A stretch of 64,000 nucleotides of DNA, from positions 1-64,000 of IMG/VR virus record IMGVR_UViG_3300028557_000035. One strand, written 5' to 3'. Origin of the DNA: a virus. The first letter of the stretch is position 1; each line of letters opens with the position of its first letter. The position numbers and the translations under genes were made by a program. The notes beneath the pieces are model-generated. The model made no database searches and was not told where the DNA came from. It saw only the letters and a program-made list of their open reading frames with translations. Positions 35,269 to 59,626 of this stretch are shown piece after piece.

Positions 35269-36471
35269 ATGTCAACAGAAAATAAACTAAGCCATTGCTC
35301 TTTTTGCGGTAATCATAAAGATAACGTAAAAAAATTAATTATAAGTGAAGAGGTAGCTATTTGTAGTACTTGTGTAGAATTATGCAACACATTAATGGTT
35401 GATGAGGAAAGTAAAAGTGATTTTGTATCGGAAAATATGGTATCATATGATCCTGAATCCATTAAAGACTTTCTAGACCAGCATGTTATTGGACAACATA
35501 ATGCCAAAAAAGTATTGAGTGTTGCTATTGCTAATCATTATAAACGTATTAATCGTCCACCAAAAGATTTAGAAATATCTAAGGGTAACGTATTACTAGT
35601 AGGCCCAACTGGTTCAGGTAAAACATTATTAGCTAAAACAGTAGCAAAATACTTAGAAGTTCCCTTTATTGTTGCAGATGCTACAAGTATCACAGAAGCA
35701 GGTTATGTGGGTGATGATGTTGAATCAATGATTAGTATGCTATTGAATGCCGCCGGCGGTGATGTTAAATTGGCCGAGCGTGGTATCGTATTCATTGACG
35801 AAATTGATAAGATTGCACGTAAGGGTGAAAGTGCCAATATTACACGTGATGTGTCAGGCGAGGGTGTTCAACAAGCATTATTGAAAATGGTTGAAGGAAC
35901 AGTATGTCGCATTCCATCTGGTGGTGGTCGTAAGCATCCAGGCGGTGATATGATAGAAATCAATACAAAAAATATCTTATTCATTGCGGGCGGGGCCTTT
36001 GTTGGATTAAAAGATATTATTAACAGTAGAGAGAATGGTACTAGTATTGGGTTTGGTGCTCAGATTAAAGACCATCGCAAAGACGGGGATTTGAGTAATG
36101 TTAGTCCTGATGATTTGGTTAAGTTTGGTATGATTCCTGAATTTATTGGACGTTTTACTACTACAGTAAATGTTGAAGATTTGACAAAAGAGGAACTAAT
36201 TAAAGTATTGACCGGTATTAAAAACAACTATATTGACCAATACAAATATTTGCTTAGTTTAGATGACATTGATTTAAATTTTACAGAAGATGCACTAGAC
36301 CAATTAGCAGAAAATACAATGTCACTTAAGACAGGAGCACGTGGATTGCATACTGAGATTGAACGTGTATTGATGCCGCATATGTTCTACACTAAAAAGT
36401 ATCGGGATAATCAGGTATTAAACATAAATATAGATAGAAAACAAATTTTGGAGCCAAAAGTTATAGTATGA
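35269..36471 (+). CDS. clpX: ATP-dependent unfoldase ClpX
   Basis: Complete 400-aa ClpX, the AAA+ ring that unfolds substrates for ClpP. All functional loops are present: zinc-binding domain (Cys10, Cys13, Cys32, Cys35), Walker A GPTGSGKT (112-119), pore loop GYVG (145-148), Walker B FIDEID (to 180), RKH loop (221-223), the ClpP-docking IGF loop (260-262) and sensor 2 GARGL (356-360). It should therefore pair with a ClpP, and a phage ClpP is encoded 5 kb downstream. It may remodel host proteins or handle virion assembly. Overlaps the bS21 gene. Confidence 0.97.
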   Translation: MSTENKLSHCSFCGNHKDNVKKLIISEEVAICSTCVELCNTLMVDEESKSDFVSENMVSYDPESIKDFLDQHVIGQHNAKKVLSVAIANHYKRINRPPKDLEISKGNVLLVGPTGSGKTLLAKTVAKYLEVPFIVADATSITEAGYVGDDVESMISMLLNAAGGDVKLAERGIVFIDEIDKIARKGESANITRDVSGEGVQQALLKMVEGTVCRIPSGGGRKHPGGDMIEINTKNILFIAGGAFVGLKDIINSRENGTSIGFGAQIKDHRKDGDLSNVSPDDLVKFGMIPEFIGRFTTTVNVEDLTKEELIKVLTGIKNNYIDQYKYLLSLDDIDLNFTEDALDQLAENTMSLKTGARGLHTEIERVLMPHMFYTKKYRDNQVLNINIDRKQILEPKVIV

Positions 36472-36683
36472 GAGGTAGAAAGGTTTTAGTTCAGGATGGA
36501 AACGTAGACAAAGCATTGCGAAAATTTAAAAAAGTTATCGCAGACTATGGTACCTTACAAGAGGTACGTGACCGTCAAGAATATGTAAAACCCACTATCA
36601 AACGCAAACTAGCAAAGAGTCAGGCTAAACGTAGATGGCAAAAGTATTTGAGAGACCAGAGTCTCCCGAAGAAAGAATTTTAA
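36468..36683 (+). CDS. rpsU: Ribosomal protein bS21
   Basis: A 71-aa homologue of small-subunit protein S21. Shared features: an N-terminal strand (KVLVQDGNVDKALRKFKK), the central EVRDRQEYVKPTIKRK and a basic helix (AKSQAKRRWQKYLRD). bS21 sits near the mRNA exit channel and helps pick Shine-Dalgarno sites. Phage-encoded bS21 is known from some aquatic phages and could replace the host copy to favour phage mRNAs. ATGA overlap with clpX, so co-translated. Confidence 0.88.
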   Translation: MRGRKVLVQDGNVDKALRKFKKVIADYGTLQEVRDRQEYVKPTIKRKLAKSQAKRRWQKYLRDQSLPKKEF

Positions 36684-36788
36684 GTTCCAAAATAGTAGAA
36701 TTTTTTGCATATTTTTATTATAATAAATATGTATTCAGATGCCGATGGTCGGGTCTGAAATATGTCATCTTGCTTATAGGAGAAAAAA

Positions 36789-37238
36789 ATGACAAATCAA
36801 TTAACCCTTCGTTCCATAGATATTCCATCTATTCATAAGTTCTCAGTCGGTTTTGACCGTATGTTTGACGAACTAACTCGCAATCAATCGCAACAAACAA
36901 ACTATCCCCCATATAACATCGTTCAGATTAATGAAGATGAATATATGATTAGTCTCGCTGTTGCAGGATTCGGTCCTGATAATCTATCAGTAACTAAAGA
37001 AAAAAACTTTTTAATTATTGAAGGTAATCATGCGTTGAATAGTATTGAAACTGATACAGAACCCACATATCTACACAAAGGTATTAGTGAACGTAATTTC
37101 CGTCGTGAGTTCCGTCTTGCGGATCACGTAGAAATTGAGAACGCACATTTAGAATTGGGTATCTTAAGTATTCACTTAAAACGTGAAGTTCCTGAAGAAC
37201 AAAAGCCCAAGTCTATTGCTATTACTTACACTAAATAA
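36789..37238 (+). CDS. Small heat-shock protein (Hsp20/IbpA family)
   Basis: A 149-aa alpha-crystallin-type chaperone. N-terminal LRSIDIPSIHKFSVGFDRMF precedes the core (YNIVQINEDEYMISLAVAGF, NFLIIEGNH, then FRREFRLADHVEI) and a short C-terminal tail; matches proteobacterial IbpA and T4-like phage Hsp20. Holds unfolded proteins; T4-like phages may use it in virion assembly. TAGGAGAAA precedes the ATG. A terminator follows. Confidence 0.93.
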   Translation: MTNQLTLRSIDIPSIHKFSVGFDRMFDELTRNQSQQTNYPPYNIVQINEDEYMISLAVAGFGPDNLSVTKEKNFLIIEGNHALNSIETDTEPTYLHKGISERNFRREFRLADHVEIENAHLELGILSIHLKREVPEEQKPKSIAITYTK

Positions 37239-37258
37239 TATAATAGATGTTCGTTAAC

Positions 37259-37286
37259 AGTGTGCGGCAATGTCGCACACTATTTT
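37259..37286 (+). terminator. Rho-independent terminator between hsp20 and clpS
   Basis: AGTGTGCG and CGCACACT form a perfect 8-bp stem with a 7-nt loop, followed by ATTTT. Confidence 0.8.
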
Positions 37287-37300
37287 ATAAAGTATAAAAA

Positions 37301-37606
37301 ATGGCTAAAACAGAAACTAAACCTAAAATCAAACCCAACATCAATTTGGCTGAACCACCGTTGTATAAAATCATTTATCTCAACGATGAAGTAACCAGTA
37401 TGAATTTTGTAGTTAACAGTTTGATTGAATATTTCAATTACAACCAGGATACTGCATCATCACTAACAGTGAGTATTCACGATCAGGGTAGTGCGGTAGT
37501 TGCTGTATTGCCTTATGAAATTGCTGAACAAAAAGGCATTGAAGTGACCCTTGATGCACGTAGTCAAGGATTTCCACTACAGATTAAAGTTGAAGCAGAA
37601 GTTTAA
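37301..37606 (+). CDS. clpS: ClpS adaptor protein (N-degron recognition)
   Basis: A 101-aa ClpS homologue: disordered basic N-terminus (about 18 residues), then YKIIYLNDEVTSMNFVV, SIHDQG and EIAEQKGIEVTLDAR. Pocket residues that hold N-terminal Leu/Phe/Trp/Tyr in E. coli ClpS are conserved: Asn28, Asp29 (then Glu30), Met34 and His60. Known ClpS proteins deliver to ClpA or ClpC; no ClpA is in the window, so it may redirect the host ClpAP or act with an unseen partner. The stop overlaps that of the convergent gene. Confidence 0.92.
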   Translation: MAKTETKPKIKPNINLAEPPLYKIIYLNDEVTSMNFVVNSLIEYFNYNQDTASSLTVSIHDQGSAVVAVLPYEIAEQKGIEVTLDARSQGFPLQIKVEAEV

Positions 37607-38304
37607 ACTTCTATTTCAATTCGTTTAGACCAATAAGGTATTTTTTTAAAATATGAATTGTTGATATAATTAATATTATCTATTGTTGTATCAACATTTT
37701 TATCATAGCTACCATAAATCCAAGTAGATACTTTATGTTCAGAGTCGTGGCCTAAAGTTTGTATTAGTGGGATCTGGTCAGCAATTTCTTCTGGTTCTTC
37801 CCCAAAAAATAATTCTGGACCTGGTGCACAATTTGTGACTATTATTATTTTTTTAACATCTAAATGTAGTTGAAGTTTTTCTAAACTTGAACCTATGTAT
37901 GAAACATCTTCTACGTGTTGTGCGTGTAAATGAAGTTTTTCTAATGCAGTAGTAGTATCCACTTTACTACCATACCAACCATTTGCACCTAGTATAGCAA
38001 TGCCATCTAATACAACAACGTGCCTATAAAGTAGTGCTACGTTAGGTAGTGATTTGCATATTTCAGATATTTCAAGGTACCTGTTCTTTACAAGATGCAT
38101 ATTATCGTGTTCTAAAGAACCCGGCGTGTAAAAAATACCACGATAAAATTTTGATAAATGAAGCAGGGTTTGATGTATTACTCGCAAATCATTGCTTATA
38201 TTTCCTGCTATGATTAGATATAGGCTTGTTGCCTTATTTTCCCAATCAAAGCTATCTTCAGCGTCCAGATTAAGGTCGCTAATAACATCAAATCCTATAT
38301 TCAT
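37603..38304 (-). CDS. Metallophosphatase-like pseudoenzyme
   Basis: A 233-aa protein with the calcineurin-like phosphoesterase outline but broken metal motifs. The usual D-x-H is DLNLD (Asp10, Asn12); the GD motif reads AGNIS (Asn35 for Asp); the GNHE motif is degraded to PGSLEHD; the TH-x-A/G-P motif reads TNCAPG; the final GHxH reads GSYDKN. The intact paralogue at 43399 has SDLHL, SGDI, GNHE and GHMHD. So it probably lost catalysis but kept the fold, perhaps as a binding protein. Convergent with clpS. Confidence 0.78.
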   Translation of the reverse strand: MNIGFDVISDLNLDAEDSFDWENKATSLYLIIAGNISNDLRVIHQTLLHLSKFYRGIFYTPGSLEHDNMHLVKNRYLEISEICKSLPNVALLYRHVVVLDGIAILGANGWYGSKVDTTTALEKLHLHAQHVEDVSYIGSSLEKLQLHLDVKKIIIVTNCAPGPELFFGEEPEEIADQIPLIQTLGHDSEHKVSTWIYGSYDKNVDTTIDNINYINNSYFKKIPYWSKRIEIEV

Positions 38305-38558
38305 TAAGATTGCGTTGTAGGCTTAGCTTTTGGTGCTCTTGGGGCTTTTGGCTTAGCAGGTGCCTTAGCTTTTGGTGCTGCCGGAGCTTTTGGTTTAGCC
38401 GGGGCTTTAGCTTTTACAGGTGCAACTGCTTCTACAACCAACGGAATTGGTGTAGTAGCTGCCGGTTCTGGTACTTTGTACGGTGCAGTTACGTTGGCCG
38501 GTTCTGCCTCGACTGGTTTAGCTGAAAAGCCAAATAAACGCTTGATAAAGTCTATCAT
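38304..38558 (-). CDS. Lys/Ala/Pro-rich histone-H1-like protein, 84 aa
   Basis: Short amphipathic start (MIDFIKRLFGFS) followed by an AT-independent low-complexity tail of PAK, KAPAAPKAK and KAPRAPKAK repeats. GGAGATAG sits before the ATG on the minus strand. Such tails bind DNA or RNA non-specifically or act as spacers. Ends at the start of the pseudo-phosphatase gene, so both form one minus operon. Confidence 0.7.
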   Translation of the reverse strand: MIDFIKRLFGFSAKPVEAEPANVTAPYKVPEPAATTPIPLVVEAVAPVKAKAPAKPKAPAAPKAKAPAKPKAPRAPKAKPTTQS

Positions 38559-38644
38559 TTCTATCTCCTAAACATATATTTACTCGGAACACTAACCCGT
38601 ATATTTTTTCCGTAATATGAGTATTATTATGGGTAATATAGTAT

Positions 38645-38652
38645 CATAAATA
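38645..38652 (+). promoter_or_regulatory. T4-late-type octamer, leaderless spacing
   Basis: CATAAATA followed by 4 nt and the ATG at 38657. Confidence 0.6.
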
Positions 38653-38656
38653 CATT

Positions 38657-39148
38657 ATGTACAGAAAAACTTCTATCATCGACCTCATGTGCGAAGAATT
38701 GCCACCAATCACATACCAAAAACGTCTTTGTTATAGGACTGACCGTGATGAGGTAATAGTACTATATAAGATGTTAAATAGGTTAATTTTCAATAACAAA
38801 TTGTTAATGCCTGAGATTGAAGTTATGCCCCGTTGTAGAAAATATTGGGGAATGTGTTATGGTTCTTATGATGAGCCTACACTCTATAAAAGTTCGTGTA
38901 AAATTAGATTGATGGACAAGTGGTACTGCAAACAATGGTTAATTACTACACTAGCACATGAAATGTGTCATCAGTATCAATGGGATGTACAGGGTATTGA
39001 ACGCCGTAAAATTGGAAAAGAGCCTATTATGAGTCACGGTCCTAGTTTCTTTGTGTTCAGAGATAAACTAAAAGCACACGGCATTTCATTAAAAAGCGCA
39101 CACGGTCGCAAACGATGGTTTAAGCACCAAAATTTATTTAAGTGTTAA
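38657..39148 (+). CDS. SprT-like metalloprotease-fold protein
   Basis: A 163-aa protein with the zinc-protease motif HEMCHQYQ (His101, Glu102, His105) and the later MSHGPSFFVFRDKLKAHG segment seen in SprT-like proteins. Eukaryotic SprT-type proteases remove DNA-protein crosslinks; phage members are widespread and uncharacterised. Position between a late octamer and a structural-looking gene suggests late expression. Confidence 0.8.
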   Translation: MYRKTSIIDLMCEELPPITYQKRLCYRTDRDEVIVLYKMLNRLIFNNKLLMPEIEVMPRCRKYWGMCYGSYDEPTLYKSSCKIRLMDKWYCKQWLITTLAHEMCHQYQWDVQGIERRKIGKEPIMSHGPSFFVFRDKLKAHGISLKSAHGRKRWFKHQNLFKC

Positions 39149-39153
39149 TATTG

Positions 39154-39161
39154 CATAAATA
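39154..39161 (+). promoter_or_regulatory. T4-late-type octamer, leaderless spacing
   Basis: CATAAATA with 6 nt to the ATG at 39168. Confidence 0.6.
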
Positions 39162-39167
39162 CACATT

Positions 39168-40730
39168 ATGCGTGATTTATTAACATTACTTGAAAACTTG
39201 GCTATGGCAGAAGCCGCAAAGAAGGACCCCAATGCTCCTTCTACATTATTTGCTAACGGCTTAACTCCTACACAAATTAACAAAGAACCAGGAAGATGGA
39301 ATTTGTTAATCAATAAAATAAAAACTAACAAACCATTCGTTGACAATTATACCGGTGAGGATATCTTCATCAAAGCTAGTGAAATAAATCGATTGACCCA
39401 ACTTAAAGATGACGGTAAATTTAAGGGGGAGAAGATTACTATCATAACTAAAGATGGTAGAGAAATCCCAATGGCCCAACTAGCTAAGAATGAAGAATTT
39501 GGTGGTAGCACTAAAGAGTCAGTTTTACTAAAGCCGTCATTAATTAAAATCACGGATAAAAACATCCCAGCATCGGACTTATACTCAACTATTGAAAACA
39601 ACCAAGTACTAGCTAGTACAGATTACGGACAAGTAGTTCAACAGCTTGCTACATACATTGTATCCGGTGAGTATGTTCAAATGCCAGAGGAATATACAAC
39701 AAAAGAAAAAGAAAAAGAACGTAAAGCTATCGTTGACTATGCTGGTGAATACTTAGGCGTATTAGCATTATTATATGACCGTAGTCGCTTCCCAAGAAAA
39801 CGTCAGTTCCAAGAATGGCTAGGTGGTGATATGGGTGCGTTAGTATTAAACTTCCCAAGTGCGGCTAACAACAATATTGCTGATAGTTATGCTACTATTA
39901 CTAATCCAGGAACAAGTCATAGCTTGAATATTTCAAGTAAAGGTACCGGTGGTGGCGCGGCCCCTGCTGTATCTGGGTTGAAAGTTAGTGAAGATATTAA
40001 ACGTAATCCTAAACTAAGAAACGCAGTAAAGCTTATTGAATTATGCCAAGCAGGTAAAGATGCAACCGGGCCAAGTACGATTGTGCAAGCATTTAAAATT
40101 ATGGATTTTTTATATCAAGTAAATCCAAATAGTATTCCTAAAATATGGCATAAGTTCTTACCGTTCTCAGCTAAGGCTCCAAAGATATTACAACAGAGTA
40201 TTGACAGTATAAACAATGGATCTGGATTACCAGCATCATACCAACCACTGCTTAATACAGTAAAAAGTGAGACTGCTACTGATGGCGGTAAGTTAGTATA
40301 TCTAATCAAAAAAACAATAGCACGTGCTGTAAATGAAGATAATGCAATCCCTGAATTCGCTGATACTATCTTACAAGTTTTGGAAATGAACTTTATCCAA
40401 CAATACACTGATTATCATAGTAACGGTGAGTTAACCTTTGCAACACAATGGCCATCTAAGTTAGAAGGTGTTGTAACATTAGAAAACAAATCAAGTGCTA
40501 AAGAACCAAGTAGTGCAGGCTTTAGTTTCAAATTGGGTAGAAATGCACAAGACTACGAAGATCCAGGACCAGATGGTGCTACAGGTGATGTGGTTCAACC
40601 GGATGAATATGGTGACGATGTTGAGGTTGCGGCTGCTGACATTGTTGAACCATCTCGCAGAAAAGAACCCAAACGTAAAGAACCCGTTGATACTGATACC
40701 GGTGGTGTTGGTCGCAAGAAACGTAAATAA
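39168..40730 (+). CDS. Conserved T4-like phage protein with capsid-targeting-like leader, 520 aa
   Basis: Starts MRDLLTLLENLAMAEAAKKD, a helical leader with an L-L-E step that could be a prohead-protease site (compare the leaders at 9493, 10172 and 57707). Further on: LNISSKGTGGGAAPAVSGLK in the middle and FATQWPSKLEGVVTLENKSS near residue 430, segments I recognise from large T4-like phage hypotheticals. The C-terminus is basic (RRKEPKRKEP, KKRK). Probably a virion-internal protein; function unknown. The late octamer 6 nt upstream supports late, leaderless expression. Confidence 0.72.
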   Translation: MRDLLTLLENLAMAEAAKKDPNAPSTLFANGLTPTQINKEPGRWNLLINKIKTNKPFVDNYTGEDIFIKASEINRLTQLKDDGKFKGEKITIITKDGREIPMAQLAKNEEFGGSTKESVLLKPSLIKITDKNIPASDLYSTIENNQVLASTDYGQVVQQLATYIVSGEYVQMPEEYTTKEKEKERKAIVDYAGEYLGVLALLYDRSRFPRKRQFQEWLGGDMGALVLNFPSAANNNIADSYATITNPGTSHSLNISSKGTGGGAAPAVSGLKVSEDIKRNPKLRNAVKLIELCQAGKDATGPSTIVQAFKIMDFLYQVNPNSIPKIWHKFLPFSAKAPKILQQSIDSINNGSGLPASYQPLLNTVKSETATDGGKLVYLIKKTIARAVNEDNAIPEFADTILQVLEMNFIQQYTDYHSNGELTFATQWPSKLEGVVTLENKSSAKEPSSAGFSFKLGRNAQDYEDPGPDGATGDVVQPDEYGDDVEVAAADIVEPSRRKEPKRKEPVDTDTGGVGRKKRK

Positions 40731-40743
40731 TTACCAAAAACAT

Positions 40744-40772
40744 TTGACAACAACATAAACACTTGTTATAAT
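40744..40772 (+). promoter_or_regulatory. Sigma70-type promoter before clpP
   Basis: TTGACA and TATAAT with a 17-nt spacer, 28 nt before the clpP ATG, with AAAGGAAG between. Confidence 0.85.
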
Positions 40773-40800
40773 AGTAGAAATATTTTTATAAAGGAAGTTT

Positions 40801-41388
40801 ATGAGTCTAGTCCCAATCGTTATTGAACAAACAGCTAAAGGTGAGCGTAGTTATGATATCTACAGCCGTCTATTGCGTGACCGTGTTATTTTGCTTGAAG
40901 GCGAAGTGCATGACCAAATGGCAAATCTTATCGTTGCACAATTATTGTTCTTAGAGTCTGAGGGTGAAAAAGATATCTCAATGTATATCAATAGCCCAGG
41001 CGGTAGTGTAACTGCTGGTATGGCTATCTATGATTGTATGCAATTCATCAAGCCTGATGTACAAACAATTGTTATGGGTCAAGCCTGTAGTATGGGTTCA
41101 CTGCTTGCACAAGCAGGAGCTAAAGATAAACGCTTTATGTTGCCAAGCGCACGACATATGATTCATCAACCAAGTGGTGGCGCACGTGGTCAAGCAACTG
41201 ATATGTTGATTCAGGTAGAAGAAATTTTAGCGATGAAAAAGAATCTTACTGAAATCTATGTTAAGCATAACAGTGCAGGTAAGACATTTGAACAGCTTAC
41301 ACAAGATATGGAACGTGATAACTTTATGTCAGCCAAACAAGCTTTGGACTATGGATTAATCGATAAAATTATCGAAAAACGAGAATAA
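40801..41388 (+). CDS. clpP: ATP-dependent Clp protease proteolytic subunit ClpP
   Basis: A 195-aa serine peptidase of the ClpP barrel. Catalytic triad visible: Ser97 (GQACSMGS), His122 ([11 protein letters not shown]) and Asp173 (ERDNFMSA), at the same positions as in E. coli. Has [17 protein letters not shown] (oxyanion region). Lacks an obvious long propeptide. Partner of the phage ClpX at 35269; both carry docking features (the IGF loop there, standard hydrophobic pocket expected here). Own promoter upstream, terminator downstream. Confidence 0.97.
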
Positions 41389-41403
41389 AAAGTACTACTT
41401 TTT

Positions 41404-41425
41404 GCCCCGGAAACGGGGCTTTTTT
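41404..41425 (+). terminator. Rho-independent terminator after clpP
   Basis: GCCCCG and CGGGGC form a perfect 6-bp stem with a GAAA tetraloop, followed by six T. Directly precedes a repeated promoter. Confidence 0.9.
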
Positions 41426-41439
41426 ACGGTTACCAAAAT

Positions 41440-41468
41440 TTGACAATAAATGGATTTGGGTCTATAAT
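41440..41468 (+). promoter_or_regulatory. Repeated sigma70-type promoter, copy 3
   Basis: TTGACA, 17 nt (ATAAATGGATTTGGGTC), TATAAT. One base in the spacer differs from copy 1. Confidence 0.9.
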
Positions 41469-41498
41469 ACATGTATAGATTGATTAAAGGACTTGAAA

Positions 41499-41723
41499 AT
41501 GACAAATTTTGAAAAAAACTGCTATGGTATAACTGAACAGGCTATCCGTGAGCAATACATGGAAAGCATCACTGCTAAGTGTTCTGGCCTTGAAATGGTC
41601 GTGATGGGTGTTCTTAGTGATGCCCAAGAGTTGTTAGCTATGGGTCGTAACGAAGCTTCCCGCAAGCAAATGAACATTGCCAAGTTTATTTTGTCAGAAA
41701 TGATGGATGCTAAAGTATCCTAA
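41499..41723 (+). CDS. Small early-type phage protein, 74 aa
   Basis: Start at ATG 41499 (AAAGGACTTG before it), not the in-frame TTG 6 nt earlier. Helical (LEMVVMGVLSDAQELLAMGR) with a short acidic start. Function unknown. The stop is 2 nt before the next -35 box. Confidence 0.72.
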   Translation: MTNFEKNCYGITEQAIREQYMESITAKCSGLEMVVMGVLSDAQELLAMGRNEASRKQMNIAKFILSEMMDAKVS

Positions 41724-41725
41724 AT

Positions 41726-41754
41726 TTGACAATAAATGGATTTGGGTATATAAT
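41726..41754 (+). promoter_or_regulatory. Repeated sigma70-type promoter, copy 4
   Basis: Same boxes and spacer as copy 1. A reading frame that starts at 41707 runs across it, but the true downstream gene must start after it. Confidence 0.9.
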
Positions 41755-41784
41755 ACTTGTATTGACTTAATTAAAGGACTAAAG

Positions 41785-42051
41785 ATGACTAAGAAAATTT
41801 CTATCAAAGTTTTTGGCGACCCCGGACACGCTTGGGCACGTTTCCCCAAAGCACGACTGGTCAAGCTTGGTATCGCTGATAAGATTACCCCCTACAGTTA
41901 TCAGAATGGAGCTAATGCTTTCCTTGAGGAAGACTGTGACCTGTCAACATTGATGGCGGCTCTTAAGGCCAAGGGCTATGAAGTCAAATTCAATGAGAGT
42001 TTTACCAATAAACAAAGCAAAATCCGTGGTTATTGCTCATACAGAATTTGA
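41785..42051 (+). CDS. Small early-type phage protein, 88 aa
   Basis: Start chosen at ATG 41785 because the longer reading frame (from 41707) would begin inside the promoter; TTAAAGGA precedes it. Contains VFGDPGHAWARFPKARLVKLG, an LAVKLG-like helix and a Gly-His motif. Function unknown. Its stop codon TGA lies within the next -35 box. Confidence 0.75.
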   Translation: MTKKISIKVFGDPGHAWARFPKARLVKLGIADKITPYSYQNGANAFLEEDCDLSTLMAALKAKGYEVKFNESFTNKQSKIRGYCSYRI

Positions 42052-42076
42052 CAATAAATGGACATTGTGCTATAAT
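42048..42076 (+). promoter_or_regulatory. Repeated sigma70-type promoter, copy 5 (leaderless)
   Basis: TTGACA, 17 nt, TATAAT. The -10 box ends 6 nt before the ATG at 42083. The -35 overlaps the previous stop. The spacer begins like the other copies (ATAAATGGA) but then diverges. Confidence 0.85.
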
Positions 42077-42082
42077 ACATTT

Positions 42083-42307
42083 ATGAAATCAAAAATCTTT
42101 ATTAATCAACGTGACAACGACAAGTATTTCAAGCAGAAAATGCCTACTTGGCGCAATGGTTTCTGTGAGATTGTGCGTAATGTCACTATTGAACCAGATC
42201 CTCACGGCATCTATATGGATGGTGAGTGGGGTTACATCACGGTCTATGGCCGTAAGATTTATGTCACTAGGGCCGGCACTGAATTTTCTTTTGAAATTCG
42301 TGGCTAA
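42083..42307 (+). CDS. Small early-type phage protein, 74 aa
   Basis: Start at ATG 42083, 6 nt after the -10 box; no Shine-Dalgarno, so probably leaderless. A longer frame from 41978 would run through the promoter. Beta-rich protein (MDGEWGYITVYGRKIYVTR). Function unknown. Confidence 0.72.
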   Translation: MKSKIFINQRDNDKYFKQKMPTWRNGFCEIVRNVTIEPDPHGIYMDGEWGYITVYGRKIYVTRAGTEFSFEIRG

Positions 42308-42854: not shown

Positions 42855-42855
42855 T

Positions 42856-52662: not shown

Positions 52663-52681
52663 ATTGTGGCTCCTTTATATT

Positions 52682-52689: not shown

Positions 52690-52715
52690 TACATAGTTTT
52701 ATTTACCCAAAACTT

Positions 52716-52723: not shown

Positions 52724-52776
52724 TCAATAGTAAAAACCATCTTTACTCAAAAAATAATAAAAACAAGGAAAGAAAG

Positions 52777-53982
52777 ATGAAGAAAATCATAATAGCGTTG
52801 GCTATAGCAATTACTACGGGTGCAATAGCGCAGACTACAACCACATCCAGTTCTGCTGGTGGCACAACTACCGGCACAAGTACATTAATTAATCAAGGAA
52901 CATATGATTCCAAAACATTAGTTGACACTAATAGCACAAGCAACAGTACCAGTACTGTGACTTCAAATAGCAATACTACTAGTAATAGCAATAGTACCAG
53001 CACTGCCGCAGTAAACAGTACTAGCACAAACACCAACAATAACAATAGTACCAGTGTAAACACAAATAACAATATTAATTCAGGAACTAGTACTGTCAAC
53101 AATAACAATGTTAATTCCGGTACAATGACTTACAATAACAACAATAACAATGTTAATTCCGGTACAATGACTTACAATAACAACAATGTAAGTACCAGTT
53201 CTAGTACTAACGTTAATACCAATAACAATATCAACACCGGTGATATGACTTATAGAAATATCAATACTTCAACTAGTACTAGCACAGCAACTAACAATAA
53301 CAACAACGTCAACACCGGTGATATGACGTATAGAAACATTAATAACAGTACAAGTACTGCTACCAACAACAATAACAACGTTAGTACAAGCACTGCTACT
53401 AACAACAATGTAAACACCGGTGATATGACCAATCGTAATATCAATACTTCAACTAGTGCAAGTACTGCTACCAACAACAATATTAATCAAAATAATTCGG
53501 TTAACACAAATATTCAGCAAGGTGAGGTAACCAATACTAATATTAATAAAACTGAGGTCACACAACGTCTTATTCAACCTCCACCAACTGCTGTTGCACC
53601 TGCAATGCTAAGTGGTGGTAATGCTGACCTATGTTCTACGGGTAGTTCTGGCTCAGTTCAGACACAAGTATTTGGCGTATCAAGTGGTGGCACAGTACGT
53701 GATATGAATTGCGAACGACTAAAGTTAAGTAAAACTCTATACGATATGGGTATGAAGGTAGCCGCAGTTGCTACTATGTGTCAAGACCGTCGTGTGTTTG
53801 ATGCTATGTTAGCCGCTGGTACACCATGCCCATACGAAGGTAAGATTGGTGAGCAGGCAAAAGCACAATGGGACGCTAATCCAGATAAGATTCCAAAGTT
53901 AGATGAGGTAAAAATAGATGACACTTATAAGAAAGTTGGCATTGGCGCTATCCTTGGCGTTCTTGTCCACAAGTTATTCTAA
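52777..53982 (+). CDS. Secreted Asn/Thr/Ser repeat protein, 401 aa
   Basis: Start after AAGGAAAGAAAG; signal peptide MKKIIIALAIAITTGAIAQ. Residues about 20-260 are low-complexity Asn/Thr/Ser with repeats such as NNNVNSGTMTY and NINTGDMTYRN, like fibrous or beta-solenoid surface proteins. The last 130 residues form a distinct domain (MNCERLKLSKTLYDMGMKVA, then CQDRRVFDAML) similar to a domain in other phage virion proteins. Probably a virion or secreted appendage. An upstream reading frame extension (52645) is rejected. Confidence 0.75.
   Translation: MKKIIIALAIAITTGAIAQTTTTSSSAGGTTTGTSTLINQGTYDSKTLVDTNSTSNSTSTVTSNSNTTSNSNSTSTAAVNSTSTNTNNNNSTSVNTNNNINSGTSTVNNNNVNSGTMTYNNNNNNVNSGTMTYNNNNVSTSSSTNVNTNNNINTGDMTYRNINTSTSTSTATNNNNNVNTGDMTYRNINNSTSTATNNNNNVSTSTATNNNVNTGDMTNRNINTSTSASTATNNNINQNNSVNTNIQQGEVTNTNINKTEVTQRLIQPPPTAVAPAMLSGGNADLCSTGSSGSVQTQVFGVSSGGTVRDMNCERLKLSKTLYDMGMKVAAVATMCQDRRVFDAMLAAGTPCPYEGKIGEQAKAQWDANPDKIPKLDEVKIDDTYKKVGIGAILGVLVHKLF
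53101..53184 (+). repeat. Identical 42-bp tandem repeat in the Asn/Thr/Ser protein
   Basis: Two copies (53101-53142 and 53143-53184) are identical at DNA level, each coding about 14 residues with the NSGTMTY motif. Further imperfect units with the GDMTYRNIN motif occur at about 53233, 53311 and 53413. Exact identity points to recent duplication by slippage. Confidence 0.85.
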
Positions 53983-55741
53983 CAGTCAACAAGTTGATAC
54001 AACTGGTAACCTGACTAACTTTACTAACCAGGCTACTGGTACTACCTCTACCTGGCAAAATGCAGGTACTATTGGTCAACCACTAACCTGCTGGGCTGGT
54101 GGTGATCCGGGCTATTGTGGTCCACTACCTAGAGTTGCTGCCTGGGGGCCAGGATCTAATATCATCAACTTCTCTTATGGATTAACAGACTTAAATCAAA
54201 TAGTCAACATCAAAAACGCATTGCCTAACTCAGGAACAGGCTTACAAGTTAACGGGTTTAACTTTGGCTTTAGTGCCAAAAATGGCAATGGATGGGACAA
54301 TGGTCAACAAGACCAGTTATCGGCATACGTTAACATCTACAATAACAAAAACTCAGCAGTATTGGAATCATACAATTATAATCTAAATGGCAAATACAAC
54401 TGGACACAATTTTATTATTCAGAAACATTCAATTCACCATATGGTGTTCCTAGTCTAGGCAATGCTCAGTATGGATTTGTGGGCAAAGATAACAACTTCT
54501 GGACAGGGCCATATGGTCCAGAAATAACTGCTGTAAGTTTTAGTTTGAAGTATAGTGTTGATCCTTGTGCAACAAATCCTTTTTACTCGACTAGTTGTAA
54601 AGGATTCAACGATGCGCTTGCAAAACTAAACCCCGTAGTAGTTGTGCCTGAAGATGCACCTCCTCCGCCACCACCAGATGGTGCACCACCTCCTCCTGGA
54701 AGCCCTCCACCACCACTAGGTAGTCCTCCCCCTCCCCCAGGCTCAGAACCTCCACCAGGTAGTCCACCTCCACCGGGGAGTGGTCCAGGACCTAGCTCAA
54801 ATAATAATCCCAACGGCCCGCCACCGGCAAATCAACCTCCTCCTCAAGGTGGAGGCAGTCAACCTAAAGCAGGTGAAGTTAAAACAGCAAGTGATAATAC
54901 TAGCAAAGCAGGACCCAGTCTCAGTAGTGTTATGAGTATGATTAGTAGTAATCAAGCAAGAATAGGCAATGAGGCTAAATCAGTAGTGCAGGCTGCTGAA
55001 TCTGCTGCCACACAAACTGCAACATCTGCACAACAGCAAGCTGAATCAGTTGCCGGCTCTGCTGTTACACAAAGTATGTCTAGTAGTTCAACTGGTACAA
55101 GTGCCACAGCAGGCACTACAACTAGGGCAACTTCACAAACTCAAACTAGTGCATTTTCATTGCCAACTGGTCAAACTTCTACGGCATCTAGTATTGAAGC
55201 GATTCGTCCACCTACACAGGTTACTGTTACTGAAACTACACAGAGTATGGGTAGTGGATTAACTGTTACAACCATACCATATCAGTTTAGCTCAATTACT
55301 CCGCAGGTCTCGGGATCATTATCATCATTTGAATCACCATTAACAAACTTTGGATTCCAGTTGCCAACAGGACGTTCTGGTATACAGATAGAGCCTGAGT
55401 CAACTCCACAGACTGAGGGAATCAAAGTAGGTGGTCGTTCTGTATTAAATGACGCAATAGAACAACGCCCTATGATGTTAAACGCAAATACACAAGAACA
55501 AAAAACAGATGCAGTAAACAAGAACGTGCAACCAAATGAATTAGCCGGAGGTGTTGATATTACTAGAATGGCAACACAACCTGCTGGCTATCAGGCATAT
55601 TCATTTGCGTTAGCAGATGCACCGTTCTATGCACCAAAAGAGATTTACAGAAATCAAGTAAATGTAGACAACGTAAGAGTATTACGTCAATTGTCTAGCG
55701 ATAGATTACACCAAGATTTGGTGAACTTACAATACAAATAA
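53918..55741 (+). CDS. Secreted Pro-rich virion-like protein, 607 aa
   Basis: Starts inside the 3' end of the previous gene (65-nt overlap in another frame) with a strong signal peptide (MTLIRKLALALSLAFLSTSY). N-terminal folded domain to about residue 235 (with TCWAGGDPGYCGPLPR and FSYGLTDLNQIV); Pro/Gly-rich spacer (repeated PPPPGS, residues ~245-310); Ser/Thr/Gln-rich middle; and a folded C-terminal domain (AYSFALADAPFYAPKEIYRN). Plausible phage fibre, adhesin or spike. Function unknown. Confidence 0.72.
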   Translation: MTLIRKLALALSLAFLSTSYSNSQQVDTTGNLTNFTNQATGTTSTWQNAGTIGQPLTCWAGGDPGYCGPLPRVAAWGPGSNIINFSYGLTDLNQIVNIKNALPNSGTGLQVNGFNFGFSAKNGNGWDNGQQDQLSAYVNIYNNKNSAVLESYNYNLNGKYNWTQFYYSETFNSPYGVPSLGNAQYGFVGKDNNFWTGPYGPEITAVSFSLKYSVDPCATNPFYSTSCKGFNDALAKLNPVVVVPEDAPPPPPPDGAPPPPGSPPPPLGSPPPPPGSEPPPGSPPPPGSGPGPSSNNNPNGPPPANQPPPQGGGSQPKAGEVKTASDNTSKAGPSLSSVMSMISSNQARIGNEAKSVVQAAESAATQTATSAQQQAESVAGSAVTQSMSSSSTGTSATAGTTTRATSQTQTSAFSLPTGQTSTASSIEAIRPPTQVTVTETTQSMGSGLTVTTIPYQFSSITPQVSGSLSSFESPLTNFGFQLPTGRSGIQIEPESTPQTEGIKVGGRSVLNDAIEQRPMMLNANTQEQKTDAVNKNVQPNELAGGVDITRMATQPAGYQAYSFALADAPFYAPKEIYRNQVNVDNVRVLRQLSSDRLHQDLVNLQYK

Positions 55742-55752
55742 AGGAAAATAAA

Positions 55753-55875
55753 ATGTTTGATATATTATTATGGATAGCAGTAGGTGCATTTATAGGTTGG
55801 AACTTCCCTCAACCTTTCTGGGCTAAAATGATGCAAGAAAAAATACAAGCTATATTAGCTAAAAAAGGAAAATAA
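55753..55875 (+). CDS. Small membrane protein, 40 aa
   Basis: MFDILLWIAVGAFIGWNFPQ start; one transmembrane helix and a basic tail. This small protein with G-A-F-I-G-W-x-F-P is widespread in T4-like marine phages. AAGGAAA precedes the ATG. Confidence 0.65.
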   Translation: MFDILLWIAVGAFIGWNFPQPFWAKMMQEKIQAILAKKGK

Positions 55876-55876
55876 A

Positions 55877-56497
55877 ATGGCAGAAGAAATAAAAAATGTA
55901 AATGCTAAAATTGATGAGGCTGAGGCGGCTGTAAAAAAGTATGCCAGTAAAGATACTGTCATCAGTATTGGTGGCTATGAATTTACACCTGCAAAATTAA
56001 TGGTTGCGGCTACAATTGTATCATCTATATTAGGTGGATTATATGGTTCATTTGAAGTCTATAAAGATTACGTGGGTATGAAGAAAAAGATTGCTGAATA
56101 TTCAGCTCCGGATTTATCTGGCTTTGATAAACGTTTAGCAGTCATTGAAGAAAATAGTAGCAAAACAAGCGATTACACACGTGATATCAAAACTGATTTG
56201 AAGAATGATATTCGCCGTAATGAATCTGTAACCGAGCAAGTAGAACGTAGCGTTAAGAATGCACAACGTGAAACTGAAAGTGAAATGCGTGATATGCGTA
56301 AAGCTGTGCGTGAAGACCTAGAAAGGGCCAGAACCGAAGCGGCTGCAATTCGCAAAGACATGGAAGCAACACGTAAGGAAATCAACAGTGAATTTACTGC
56401 GGCTCGCAGAGAAATCAACCGTGAAGTAGAAACATTAAAGAGAGAAGTTGATAGCAAAATACAAAAGGCTATGGATAATCCGTTGGCAAACAAATGA
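55877..56497 (+). CDS. Membrane coiled-coil protein, 206 aa
   Basis: One transmembrane helix near residues 39-60 (LMVAATIVSSILGGLYGSF), then about 130 residues of highly charged coiled coil (EMRDMRKAVREDLERARTEA). Function unknown, possibly virion or host-membrane scaffold. Overlaps the next small gene by 4 nt. Confidence 0.75.
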   Translation: MAEEIKNVNAKIDEAEAAVKKYASKDTVISIGGYEFTPAKLMVAATIVSSILGGLYGSFEVYKDYVGMKKKIAEYSAPDLSGFDKRLAVIEENSSKTSDYTRDIKTDLKNDIRRNESVTEQVERSVKNAQRETESEMRDMRKAVREDLERARTEAAAIRKDMEATRKEINSEFTAARREINREVETLKREVDSKIQKAMDNPLANK

Positions 56498-56658
56498 AAT
56501 ACATAGTGCTACTGGTGCTGGGAATAATTATCCCATCATCAGCGGCACGTATTGAGTGTGTTCGGTGGGCATGGAGTGGCGATGTTTACAATCGTAAAGT
56601 AATATGTTTAGAATGGCGAGATAGAGATGCACCAAAGAAGATTGACAAGAAAAAATGA
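56494..56658 (+). CDS. Small secreted protein, 54 aa
   Basis: Signal peptide MKYIVLLVLGIIIPSSAA followed by RIECVRWAWSGDVYNRKVIC. The CVRW-x-W-x-GDVYNRKV-x-C pattern matches small secreted proteins found in many phages. Two Cys could pair in the periplasm. Overlaps both neighbours. Function unknown. Confidence 0.68.
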   Translation: MKYIVLLVLGIIIPSSAARIECVRWAWSGDVYNRKVICLEWRDRDAPKKIDKKK

Positions 56659-57137
56659 TAGATCCTATTACTCTTGGTATTGCCTTCACAGCCGCCCAAC
56701 AATCAGTTGGTTATATTAAAAAAGCCATTGCATTAGGTAAGGATGTTAACAGTCTATACGGACAATTTGCTAAGTTTTTTGAAAACTCTGACACAATTCA
56801 CTCTGCTAATGTAGCGGCACAAAACGGTAAAAACATTCTTACCGATGGACAGATTAGGTCATTGTCGATACAGATTGCAATGCAAAGTAAAGCATTACGT
56901 GATGCTGAAAAAGAATTAAAAGAATTATTGATATGGTCAGGAAATAAAGATGTATGGGATGAGATGATGGCTGAACGTGTTCGTATGTATAAAGAACGTG
57001 CTAAATTACAAGCGGACATAAAAAATGCTAGGATTCAAGCACAGTCCGACATGATAGATAGACTGCTTATAGGCACAAGTTTTATGGCAATAGCGATCCC
57101 GGTTGTGCTTTTCACCTTTGCTATGCTCACTAGATAA
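56655..57137 (+). CDS. Conserved helical membrane protein, 160 aa
   Basis: Helical N-terminal part (MIDPITLGIAFTAAQQSVGY, then a second helix) and a C-terminal transmembrane segment (LLIGTSFMAIAIPVVLFTFA). Typical of small T4-like phage membrane or tail-associated proteins with an IDP-x-T start. Unknown function. Confidence 0.7.
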   Translation: MIDPITLGIAFTAAQQSVGYIKKAIALGKDVNSLYGQFAKFFENSDTIHSANVAAQNGKNILTDGQIRSLSIQIAMQSKALRDAEKELKELLIWSGNKDVWDEMMAERVRMYKERAKLQADIKNARIQAQSDMIDRLLIGTSFMAIAIPVVLFTFAMLTR

Positions 57138-57140
57138 ATA
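57133..57140 (+). promoter_or_regulatory. T4-late-type octamer
   Basis: GATAAATA, 22 nt before the ATG at 57163. A short AT-only inverted repeat (ATATTAA/TTAATAT) spans the leader and the start codon. Confidence 0.4.
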
Positions 57141-57162
57141 ATATATTAAAGAAAGGCTTAAT

Positions 57163-57699
57163 ATGGCAGAAGTAAAAACATTATCACGTAGTGAGCGTGA
57201 GGCACAACTTAAAGATAGAGCAGGATGGGTCATTACCGTCATTGCACTATTATTAGCAATTACAACATATATGGCTAGTGGATTTAGTAGCAAAATATTA
57301 AGTAATACAATCAAAGCAAACGATACTTGGAACTTTTACCAAGCTAAATCAATTAAGCAAAGTATCGCTGAAGGACAATTAGAATCCACTACAGATCCAA
57401 AACGTAAAGAAATATTACAAGCTAAAATTGATAGATATGAATCTGAGCCTGATAAGGGTGAGGGTAAGAAAGAATTAATGGCTAAAGCATTAAAGATTGA
57501 AGCCGAACGTGACGAAGCCAAAAAACATACACCATGGTTAACGTTTGCCGCAATGGCATTTCAGTTAGCTATTGTATTATTATCTGCTAGTATTTTGGCT
57601 GTGAGTAAACGTATGTTTTGGGGAAGTATTGGTGTTAGTATTTTTGGAACAATGTTATTGACCCAAGGCATTTGGCTTGTACTACCATTTGTGATATAA
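57163..57699 (+). CDS. DUF4337-like membrane protein, 178 aa
   Basis: Two N- and C-terminal membrane regions (ITVIALLLAITTYMASGF and two helices from about residue 125) flanking a soluble helical part. The NTIKANDTWNFYQAKSIK segment is the characteristic W-x-F/Y-YQAK-S-IK motif of DUF4337. These are inner-membrane proteins of unknown function, also in cyanophages. AAAGAAAGG precedes the ATG. Confidence 0.8.
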   Translation: MAEVKTLSRSEREAQLKDRAGWVITVIALLLAITTYMASGFSSKILSNTIKANDTWNFYQAKSIKQSIAEGQLESTTDPKRKEILQAKIDRYESEPDKGEGKKELMAKALKIEAERDEAKKHTPWLTFAAMAFQLAIVLLSASILAVSKRMFWGSIGVSIFGTMLLTQGIWLVLPFVI

Positions 57700-57700
57700 T
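57672..57700 (+). promoter_or_regulatory. Sigma70-type promoter, leaderless
   Basis: TTGGCT, 17 nt, TATAAT ending 6 nt before the ATG at 57707, within the 3' end of the DUF4337 gene. Confidence 0.6.
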
Positions 57701-57706
57701 CTATTA

Positions 57707-58267
57707 ATGAAAATTAAAGATTTAATGGAAGACATTAGTAAAAAAATGCCCCATCTATACTTAGATATGGATGGGGTTCAAGCTGACTTTTTTGGAGCTT
57801 GGGCCGCAAAACATAATGTTGGTAATTACAAAGAAATTCCTGATACTGAAACATCAATAAATGAATTAGCTACAAGTAGTCCTGAAGAAGTTTATAAGTT
57901 TTTTAGAGAATTAAAACCGCTTCAAGGTGGAGGTAAGGTTGTGCAATGGTTAAATCAAAATAACATTCCATATACTGTATTAAGTGCTCCATTACGCGGA
58001 CCGTATGCTAGTGCCAGTATAGAAGCTAAAAAAGATTGGCTAGATGAACACAATCCAAATGCTACACAAAATGCTATCTTTACACAACATAAACACAAAT
58101 ACGCATTAAAAAATGGTGAGCCAAATGTTCTAGTAGATGATTATGGTAAGTATTTAAATCTTTGGAGTAACGCAGGTGGTATTGCTGTTAAGCATGAAGA
58201 TGGTAATACAGAACACACAATTAGTGAATTAGAAAAGATTTACAATCCCTATCTACAGAATAAGTAA
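57707..58267 (+). CDS. HAD-family 5'(3')-deoxyribonucleotidase-like protein, capsid-targeting-like leader
   Basis: A 186-aa HAD phosphatase: LYLDMDGVQADFF gives the DxDx nucleophile/acid (Asp20, Asp22), LSAPLRGP supplies motif II, the basic residue lies near KHKYALKNGE, and VLVDDYGKYL provides the acidic pair. This matches NT5C-type deoxyribonucleotidases. The N-terminus MKIKDLMEDISKK resembles the leader type at 9493 and 10172. No ribosome site; -10 box 6 nt upstream. It may adjust dNMP pools. Confidence 0.82.
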   Translation: MKIKDLMEDISKKMPHLYLDMDGVQADFFGAWAAKHNVGNYKEIPDTETSINELATSSPEEVYKFFRELKPLQGGGKVVQWLNQNNIPYTVLSAPLRGPYASASIEAKKDWLDEHNPNATQNAIFTQHKHKYALKNGEPNVLVDDYGKYLNLWSNAGGIAVKHEDGNTEHTISELEKIYNPYLQNK

Positions 58268-58270
58268 TAT

Positions 58271-58456
58271 ATGTCTAAAAAGAATCCAGCACAAAGTTAT
58301 GATAGCTATGAAGTTATCACTCAGGAAGATCCAGAAACGGGTGATATGCTTATTCCACTACCCCCACAGTTGTTACGTGATTTAGGGTGGAAAGAGGGTG
58401 ATAACGTTGACTTTTCTATTGATGAAAAGGGTAGAATTATACTTAAAAAAATATGA
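58271..58456 (+). CDS. AbrB/SpoVT-like swapped-hairpin protein, 61 aa
   Basis: Matches the AbrB/MazE fold: LIPLPPQLLRDLGWKEGDNV then VDFSIDEKGRIILKK. Such proteins bind DNA as dimers, often as antitoxins or regulators. No toxin gene lies next to it. Starts 3 nt after the previous stop; AATAAGTA lies just upstream. Overlaps the next gene by 4 nt. Confidence 0.8.
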   Translation: MSKKNPAQSYDSYEVITQEDPETGDMLIPLPPQLLRDLGWKEGDNVDFSIDEKGRIILKKI

Positions 58457-58929
58457 CAATTCCTATTAATGATACAACAATGATGAGTAGTGCAATGATG
58501 GCTAGTGATAGCACAATAGATACGATTACATTAACAGGGTCGGATAGCTCGCCAGTATATACAATTTCTGGTTCAGGTGGTGCAAGTAGCTCTGATTTAT
58601 ACTGGGGTATGAATGGGAGTAGTCCAGGACAAGTATTAACAAGTAACGGTACTAATACTAGTTGGGCTAATATAACATTGGCTGAACCAGATATTAAAGG
58701 TGCCACACTTAAGGTTAACGGTAATGCTGATTTTGATGGTGAAGTTACTATCAAGGGCAAAAATCTAACAGATATGCTTGAAAAAATTGAAGAACGATTG
58801 GCAATTCTTCACCCAAATGAAAAACTCGAAGATAAATGGGATGAGTTAAAAGAATTGGGCAAACGCTACAAAGAACTAGAACAAGAAATCATTGAAAAAG
58901 AGAAGATTTGGTCAATCTTAAAGAAATAA
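58453..58929 (+). CDS. Virion-type protein with C-terminal coiled coil, 158 aa
   Basis: N-terminal Ser/Thr/Gly-rich beta region (DTTMMSSAMMASDSTID, then ISGSGGASS), followed by VNGNADFDGEVTIKGKNL and MLEKIEERLAILHPNEKL, and a helix to the end. The D-F-x-G-D-V-x-I-K-G...LEKIEERLAILHPN layout is common in T4-like phage baseplate or fibre-associated proteins. ATGA overlap. Confidence 0.75.
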   Translation: MTIPINDTTMMSSAMMASDSTIDTITLTGSDSSPVYTISGSGGASSSDLYWGMNGSSPGQVLTSNGTNTSWANITLAEPDIKGATLKVNGNADFDGEVTIKGKNLTDMLEKIEERLAILHPNEKLEDKWDELKELGKRYKELEQEIIEKEKIWSILKK

Positions 58930-58932
58930 GAT

Positions 58933-58961
58933 TTGACAAATAATCCATATTTTGCTATAAT
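58933..58961 (+). promoter_or_regulatory. Sigma70-type promoter
   Basis: TTGACA and TATAAT with a 17-nt spacer, 32 nt upstream of ATG 58994. Confidence 0.85.
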
Positions 58962-58993
58962 AGAAACTGTTTATTAACTATGACCTATACACC

Positions 58994-59389
58994 ATGACTA
59001 TGCATCTAGCACATCCCGCACTAACTATGGGCGGCAAACGCAAAGGTAAGATTAAATTTCGCAACAGTGCAGAGGCACAAAAGGCACGACAACTTGATGC
59101 TGATTGGAAAGAACTACAGAAAAAATGGGAAGTTGATGCTGACGACAAAAAGCGCAAACGTGCATTAGCGGCAGAACCATTACAATATAAATTGTCAGCT
59201 CCTGCAGGTCGTGAAACACAGCGTATTGCAAGCCGTGATACAGGTCATTCAGGTGCAGTACGCACAAAAGATATTCCACAATATACTGGTACTAAGATTA
59301 TTGGTATTGGCACTATGCATAAAAGTAATGCGGTGCCTATTTTCTCTGACGAACAAGCGGTAGAGATTAGCACAATGCGCCGTGGGTAA
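58994..59389 (+). CDS. Conserved T4-like phage protein, 131 aa
   Basis: Begins MTMHLAHPALTMGGKRKGKI and continues with a basic helix (ARQLDADWKELQKKWEV), then DIPQYTGTKIIGIGTMHKSN and IFSDEQAVEISTMRR. The MHKSNAVP-x-FS-x-E ending is shared by many T4-like phage hypotheticals. Function unknown. An alternative start is the Met 2 codons later. Confidence 0.75.
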   Translation: MTMHLAHPALTMGGKRKGKIKFRNSAEAQKARQLDADWKELQKKWEVDADDKKRKRALAAEPLQYKLSAPAGRETQRIASRDTGHSGAVRTKDIPQYTGTKIIGIGTMHKSNAVPIFSDEQAVEISTMRRG

Positions 59390-59410
59390 CAGGAGATAAT
59401 AGAAACATAT

Positions 59411-59626
59411 ATGGCAAAAGAAGAAGGTATTAGAATGGACGGCAAGGTAATAGACGTATTACCCAATGCTGTCTTTAGAGTTGTATTAAACAGTGGACCC
59501 ACAGTCACTGGTTATATCTCAGGTAAAATGCGTCAACACGATATTAAAATTCTATTAGGTGATACAGTAGAAATTGAATTCAGCCCATATGATTTAGCTA
59601 AAGGGCGTATTGTAAGGAGACGTTAG
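59411..59626 (+). CDS. infA: Translation initiation factor IF-1
   Basis: A 71-aa OB-fold protein aligning end to end with bacterial IF-1 (72 aa): [20 protein letters not shown], then [24 protein letters not shown], and [15 protein letters not shown]-1 blocks the A site during 30S initiation and helps select the initiator codon. A phage-borne copy is rare and, with bS21 at 36468, suggests control of translation initiation. It overlaps the next gene by one base (TAGTG). Confidence 0.95.

Follow-up and report, generated by a model that had tools for sequence, protein, structure and literature searches.

Why should a phage encode two small parts of the bacterial initiation machinery, the ribosomal protein bS21 and the initiation factor IF-1? 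The question is raised by IMG/VR record IMGVR_UViG_3300028557_000035, a 68.7-kb fragment of a large phage of aquatic type, from a jumbo-phage lineage, of which 64.0 kb (the window from here on) were analysed after a first-pass annotation had picked out both genes. The two frames are real genes, long resident in phages and probably functional, and we are moderately confident that they serve as phage-adapted parts of 30S initiation that keep or bias initiation on phage mRNAs. The same lineage has a class of genes whose promoters would give leaderless messages, a property that the two factors do not predict across phages.

Identity, constraint and origin of the two genes

Both frames, found where the first-pass annotation had placed them, are intact and score above curated cut-offs, including those of the equivalog families (Table 1). 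IF-1 is a full-length single domain, in which residues 1-70 or 1-71 align in sequence with solved IF-1 chains; it is 58.6% identical to E. coli IF-1, and the best bacterial match (Arcobacteraceae) reaches 64%. The PHROG family that it matches is a phage family listed without function, and the gene upstream of it matches phrog_27048. Among structure chains bS21 is closest to 5myj (42.1 bits), with a weak match to F. johnsoniae 7jil (26.5 bits), and its C-terminus is conserved among phages, mostly as ...RW.K.L..Q.LP.K. Both genes are under strong purifying constraint: counting only pairs with 75-97% DNA identity, the median ratio of non-synonymous to synonymous substitution (dN/dS) was 0.075 for bS21 (35 pairs from 14 distinct 71-aa viral homologues) and 0.063 for IF-1 (318 pairs, 53 distinct 71-aa viral sequences); with silent sites of IF-1 near saturation (median pS 0.63), these are rough figures.

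From IMG/VR we retained the best 80 of 134 loci encoding IF-1 relatives (79 records, 66-100% identical); two of these records, G034 and G035, are perhaps one phage, and the counted records are thus not all independent. The phylogeny suggested as a check in the first-pass annotation was run on IF-1, with 84 rows and 71 columns, and gave a phage-only clade and no recent host copy. The 64 rows of the lineage form one group (80/82; 78% of bootstrap trees), and together with Sinorhizobium phage Phosso and the uncultured phage LR756508 they group at 99/96 to the exclusion of all 15 bacterial rows, ten of which come from plasmid-labelled records; few forks are resolved, given 71 columns and 15 bacterial rows. 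The IF-1 of LR756511 groups with E. coli (97/90), and for Lak-A1 and DAC19 there is a weak grouping with a Bacteroidota row; phages thus seem to have acquired IF-1 more than once. In a residue table from which DAC19, Daviesbacteria and the window row (identical to one retained) were left out, 12 printed columns are invariant in the 14 bacterial rows; 11 of them are invariant in 63/63 phage rows and the remaining one, E56, in 62. Three residues, G34, L49 and R69, are the same in all 63 phage rows; among the 14 bacterial rows G34 and R69 never appear and L49 does so twice.

Frequency and linkage of the pair

An IF-1 beside a phage bS21 had been annotated as something much rarer than bS21 itself; within this lineage, with its 134 IMG/VR loci, IF-1 is not rare. 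bS21 is present in 36 of the 79 IF-1 records (28/50 plus 8/29), most of which are fragments, and in 15 of the 17 that are at least 100 kb long. In 35 of 37 pairs (one record, G014, gives two) both genes share a strand, with IF-1 8-30 kb downstream of bS21 (median 22.9 kb), and in the other two the genes are on opposite strands. For the reverse comparison 31 bS21 records outside the IF-1 list were picked by us from the best 80 of 176 bS21 loci; three had IF-1, one of them as a piece at a contig edge, and most of the 28 negatives are uninformative because 26 of them have under 22 kb of sequence beyond bS21 on its downstream side. Among individual phages both factors were found in Phosso, LR756508 and LR756511 (where bS21 barely passes, with 27.1 bits against a cut-off of 27), bS21 only in PA5oct, Vibrio 2.275.O and Melnitz, IF-1 only in Lak-A1 and DAC19, and neither in GAP32 and T4.

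A tblastn search of 50,697 GenBank phage records gave 35 with a match to IF-1, among which are some bacterial contigs. Of the two "Acinetobacter phage MD-2021a" records the one looked at, CAKLQH020000005.1 (our locus L260), is bacterial chromosome in which asd, truA and leuB/C/D flank infA, and bacterial records labelled as phage inflate the counts of phage IF-1. The Listeria, Enterococcus and Staphylococcus OR84 "phage" records that match IF-1 are likewise suspected to be bacterial. A separate case is the 524,565-bp record IMGVR_UViG_3300027749_002876, in which IF-1 and bS21 occur twice each, as mirror images (loci L014/L030 and L095/L110); the assembly may have fused two related phage genomes head to head, or the inverted duplication may be real.

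Start regions of the two genes

The motif TAAATA, a predicted T4-type late promoter element, lies 31-40 nt before the bS21 start in all 64 distinct upstream sequences, and at exactly 37 nt in 55 of them. In 57 of 69 distinct upstreams the bS21 start overlaps the TGA of an open clpX frame, and in these the motif falls within clpX codons, its Ile being ATA in 53/53 (usage 0.27) and its Asn AAT in 56/56 (usage 0.66). These counts come from related sequences and hence carry no p-value; with both codons invariant in spite of their usage, the DNA at this site seems to be constrained itself. The motif predicts late expression of bS21, from a transcript starting near -32. GGAG, a Shine-Dalgarno (SD) motif, is nowhere nearer than 14 nt to bS21 (0/64): it stands at 26 nt in 30 upstreams, at 14 nt in 11 and at 23 or 20 nt in 3, and within 40 nt of the start it is absent in the other 20. 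At -32 to -27, the end of clpX, Gln is CAG in a fraction of 0.85 and Glu is GAG in 0.89, against a usage of 0.21 for either codon, which hints at a role of AGGAG besides coding; the upstream of the window itself has GGAG at 14 nt instead of this conserved CAG-GAG site.

The start codon of IF-1 is fixed in position by homology, and the SD before it is displaced. Of 56 distinct upstreams, 38 have GGAG at 12-17 nt, 3 have it at 4-5 nt and 15 lack it; when any SD 4-mer is counted, the figures are 42 at 12-17 nt, 8 at 4-7, 1 at 26 and 5 without. As a baseline, 9 of 75 GGAG motifs before genes of the window and of its relative G005 are at 12-17 nt, with a peak at 5-8. Autogenous control is one possibility for the displaced SD. 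Hairpins in the spacer between SD and start gave a mean stem score of 6.67 against 5.47 (standard deviation 0.22) for shuffled sequences, too weak a signal with 38 related sequences.

Leaderless-type genes of the lineage

A set of genes with apparently leaderless mRNAs had been noticed at first pass, and such a set is indeed present in the form of promoter positions. The late element of T4, TATAAATA, spans -13 to -6 (PMC1524935), so that a TAAATA 4-6 nt before an ATG would put the AUG at or next to +1; genes with this arrangement are called leaderless-type here. We counted ATG-started genes of at least 60 aa, with starts from our own simple gene caller, and most genomes were sampled as 20-kb stretches (60-120 kb per genome; G005 whole). 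In seven records of the lineage 97 of 1004 genes were leaderless-type (window 11/96, G005 36/388, G075 11/117, G055 17/149, G076 10/101, G039 5/81, G090 7/72), where about 6 are expected from the region -26 to -53. Among 6-mers seen at least six times at this spacing, TAAATA came second by Poisson tail, the first being an SD motif. SD motifs, found before 396/1004 genes overall, precede 394 of the 907 others and 2 of the 97 leaderless-type genes (Fisher 1.5e-19), and none of the 11 in the window. Where TAAATA-N4-6-NTG opens a frame of at least 60 aa, which it does 128 times (summed), the NTG is ATG in 113; ATG is the usual start anyway, and the count agrees with the requirement of leaderless mRNAs for AUG (PMC4611024). 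A terminator-like hairpin with a T-run stands just upstream of 6/97 leaderless-type and 9/907 other genes (p = 0.0017). From promoter position, the missing SD and, for those six, the terminator-like site upstream, the mRNAs of this class are predicted to be leaderless.

The arrangement is kept in G005 by 9 of the 11 orthologues of the window's leaderless-type genes, and in more distant relatives by 8 of 21 (G075 2/5, G055 2/4, G089 2/3, G076 0/1, G039 2/3, G073 0/5), which indicates considerable turnover. Matches to T4 gp55 were weak (E 4.1e-8 to 5.6e-3) and were found in 10/10 phages tested, including those that have no leaderless-type genes. One promoter in the window is of host type (Table 1) and lies so close to the ATG of an exonuclease gene (PF02739, 1.8e-18) that leaderless-type genes may not only be late; its TATAAT has the same gap in G005 and not in G073. 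Overall, TATAAT at a gap of 3-8 is enriched in G005 (14 genes, 4.7 expected); the window has 2 such genes against 1.7 expected, and most relatives show no enrichment either.

Do the two factors go with leaderless genes?

The first-pass annotation also proposed a link between the factors and these genes. The promoter class itself is real, but having both factors does not predict it, because four phages with both show almost none in the stretches sampled (Phosso 1/165, G089 2/148, LR756511 2/114, LR756508 1/69). Neither factor gene is itself leaderless-type, TAAATA being 37 nt upstream in bS21 and the SD distant in IF-1. Phages without IF-1 gave 1/482 in the stretches read (PA5oct 0/134, Vibrio 2.275.O 0/87, GAP32 0/88, T4 0/63, Melnitz 1/110), and G073, with IF-1 and no bS21, gave 5/137; IF-1 was not found in G090, a fragment that stops 7 kb past bS21. 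The leaderless architecture seems to have spread within IF-1 phages, where one lineage cannot show a link, and a link limited to this lineage is possible. On the premise that both proteins influence the choice of leaderless messages, the literature points both ways. According to reviews, in-vitro translation of leaderless mRNAs is raised by IF1 and IF2 (PMC9031893), and 61S ribosomes without bS1 and bS21 prefer leaderless mRNAs (PMC12186496), so that an added IF-1 could help such translation and an added bS21, if anything, would not. Separately, an acidic residue 44 of IF-1 seemed from a few genomes to be a promising mark of leaderless-rich phages and was unsupported by the larger set (81/1010 vs 7/175 genes over 80 loci, Fisher p = 0.06, with differing GC content).

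What the factors may do

The sequences establish what the genes are, their purifying selection, phage ancestry and linkage, and that their control elements are conserved; from these features we infer timing, ribosome binding, exchange and mRNA preference as follows. IF-1, which keeps the IF-1 core, would most likely bind the 30S A site, replacing or joining the host factor; bS21 would be made late from the promoter inside clpX and would exchange into the 30S platform; and jointly they would sustain or bias initiation on phage mRNAs during host shutdown. The leaderless mRNAs would be a separate property of the lineage, and that extra IF-1 helps to translate them is a guess. For such a role speaks that the bS21 of phage HTVC008M enters E. 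coli ribosomes (cited in PMC9976891). Three points weigh against it: G070 (117 kb) and G073 (353 kb) have IF-1 but no bS21; the two are not obligate partners, since each occurs alone in some phages; and the replacements fixed in phage IF-1 could also mean altered or lost activity.

Less probable, although it deserves serious attention, is that the phage copies simply top up IF-1 and bS21 of the host when these are limiting or degraded, with no preference for phage mRNAs. Identity of up to 64% to bacterial IF-1 with a retained core, purifying selection rather than fast divergence, and ordinary SD motifs on 396/1004 genes of the lineage would all fit such a supply, but the phage-fixed G34, L49 and R69 and the conserved bS21 C-terminus suggest changed properties. 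We hold it to be rather unlikely that ClpX, ClpS and ClpP clear away the bS21 of the host, or other host proteins, and thereby make room for the phage bS21. The bS21 gene starts within the clpX stop (ATGA) in those 57 of 69 upstreams, genes for ClpS and ClpP are close by, and a phage protease attacking host bS21 has been suggested by others (PMC9976891); Hsp20 and Clp genes are, however, commonly found near phage bS21 and may serve other ends (PMC9723584).

That IF-1 works away from the ribosome, in transcription antitermination or as an RNA chaperone, seems improbable to us. It is a small RNA binder of the oligonucleotide-binding (OB) fold, and E. coli IF1 has chaperone and antitermination activity, but the columns invariant in bacteria are kept in nearly every phage row and the IF-1 equivalog cut-off is passed. 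We give an equally small chance to a translation in two modes, SD-led and, for many late genes, leaderless, in which IF-1 would be tuned to raise initiation at a 5'-AUG and late bS21 would refit the 30S platform. As both start regions are off-standard (a displaced SD in IF-1, no GGAG nearer than 14 nt in bS21), the output of the factors could then sense the state of initiation. The output of infC senses initiation state, and, if this two-mode scheme were true, the factors would resemble infC and Flavobacterium rpsU. Recent host copies, contamination or decayed genes have next to no probability and were rejected: some infA-bearing "phage" records are bacterial, as the chromosomal context of the MD-2021a record illustrates, but the phage-only tree group, dN/dS well below 1 and a gene order conserved in 35/37 pairs speak against them.

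Genome context and lineage

In the 352-kb relative G005, ten long proteins were searched against PHROG, with no match for two and a radical-SAM family for another. The families matched by the other seven are those of the terminase large subunit (TerL), DNA polymerase, DNA helicase, DnaB-like helicase, a virion structural protein and, twice, the tail sheath. The TerL of G005 matches 2581 phage records, mostly phages of Escherichia, Synechococcus and Klebsiella, from which we read the lineage as probably T4-type; the closest are Phosso, with 51.9% identity and 522 bits, and the PA5oct group, with 50.3% and 532 bits. The use of SD motifs in the lineage argues against a Bacteroidota host. A tRNA search of the 64.0-kb window found none, and no Rfam family reached its gathering score there.

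Table 1. Genes and control elements in the window (positions as counted in the window).
Feature	Position	Strand	Evidence and remarks
Host-type promoter, TTGACA-17 nt-TATAAT	15005..15033	+	6 nt before ATG of 5'-3' exonuclease gene at 15040
clpX-like gene	35269..36471	+	zf-C4_ClpX 1.4e-11; AAA_2 2.8e-33; stop shares 4 bases (ATGA) with bS21 start
TAAATA, predicted T4-type late promoter element within clpX	36425..36430	+	37 nt 5' of bS21 start
Phage bS21 (ribosomal protein S21), 71 aa	36468..36683	+	Pfam PF01165 5.5e-16, 58.5 bits (cut-off 27); NCBIfam equivalog TIGR00030 57.8 bits (cut-off 28.95); phrog_21469; dN/dS 0.075
Hsp20-like chaperone	36789..37238	+	PF00011 1.1e-16
ClpS-like adaptor	37301..37606	+	PF02617 1.2e-23
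TAAATA 4 nt before ATG of SprT-like gene 38657-39148	38647..38652	+	PF10263 3e-8; gap 4 in G005, 5 in G055
TAAATA 6 nt before ATG of gene 39168-40730	39156..39161	+	Shared with G005 and G055 but not with G075
ClpP-like protease	40801..41388	+	PF00574 2.2e-79
AGGAG, displaced SD	59391..59395	+	15 nt before IF-1 start
Phage IF-1 (infA), 71 aa	59411..59626	+	PF01176 2.4e-21, 75.5 bits (cut-off 30.2); equivalog TIGR00008 99.4 bits (cut-off 61.15); phrog_30201; tree; dN/dS 0.063
TAAATA 4 nt before ATG of A-type Fe-S assembly gene 60375-60707	60365..60370	+	PF01521 4e-18; gap 5 with an SD in G005; absent in five other relatives with an orthologue

The genes for ClpX, bS21, Hsp20, ClpS, a SprT-like protein and ClpP between 35269 and 41388 make up a near-complete proteolysis set in a single phage block. 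Elsewhere in the window, frames named by eye from their translations as GTP cyclohydrolase-, QueD- and QueE-like (560-1246, 2225-2707 and 5270-6118) suggest a 7-deazaguanine modification of DNA or tRNA.

Relation to known systems

The pair is no novelty among phages, and the present one adds members. Translation genes of huge phages include IF1, IF3, S1, S4, S21 and L7/L12, and the proposal made for IF1 and S21 there was that host initiation is intercepted or redirected (Al-Shayeb et al., 2020; PMC7162821); the uncultured phages LR756511 (595 kb) and LR756508 (484 kb) have both factors as here, the IF-1 of LR756511 being a separate acquisition, unlike that of the lineage. The 469-kb isolate Phosso (PV764938) is annotated with IF-1 and 30S ribosomal protein S21, and its IF-1 is of the same clade. 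It differs in having an IF-1 57% identical, with Tyr69, hardly any leaderless-type genes and, within 25 nt upstream of IF-1, no GGAG. Three features are new: promoters of the leaderless type as a class in the lineage, a late-promoter motif within clpX, and an SD set back from the start of phage infA; the passages of PMC7162821 on these phages describe neither leaderless-type promoters nor the control elements found here. Phages of Bacteroidetes from lakes are alike in having a phage bS21 with Clp and Hsp20 genes, and their bS21 is expressed late, alongside structural genes (Chen et al., 2022; PMC9723584), but their hosts are usually without SDs, whereas the lineage here uses them; "IF-1" and "initiation factor" are absent from the main text of that paper. 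Jug phages are reported to have a "translation initiation factor 1A" as a core gene (PMC12363816).

The late promoters of T4 would be similar in TATAAATA at -13 to -6 and in the weak gp55 matches, but none of the T4 genes counted above has a TAAATA that would place the AUG at +1, and the lineage has a group of them. The message of lambda cI begins at its AUG (PMC9031893), whereas here a whole class of promoter positions, recognised by sequence, would do so in one lineage. Phage transcripts have been called "often leaderless" in PMC5312081, in which phage AR9 itself has leaders of 26-491 nt. The autoregulated rpsU of Flavobacterium (PMC9976891) is likewise a translation-component gene with an unusual initiation region, its SD being extended and that of phage IF-1 displaced to 12-17 nt. 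No literature joining phage IF-1, bS21 and leaderless mRNAs was found in a search mostly without subscription papers and excluding supplements.

In the widespread jumbo-phage lineage described here, close to one in ten of the examined genes look leaderless, alongside an IF-1 and a bS21 that is probably late. Phosso, a related isolate with the factors but almost no leaderless-type genes, is a useful contrast. With defined proteins and mRNAs, a viral change of start-site choice by refitting the host 30S subunit becomes testable.

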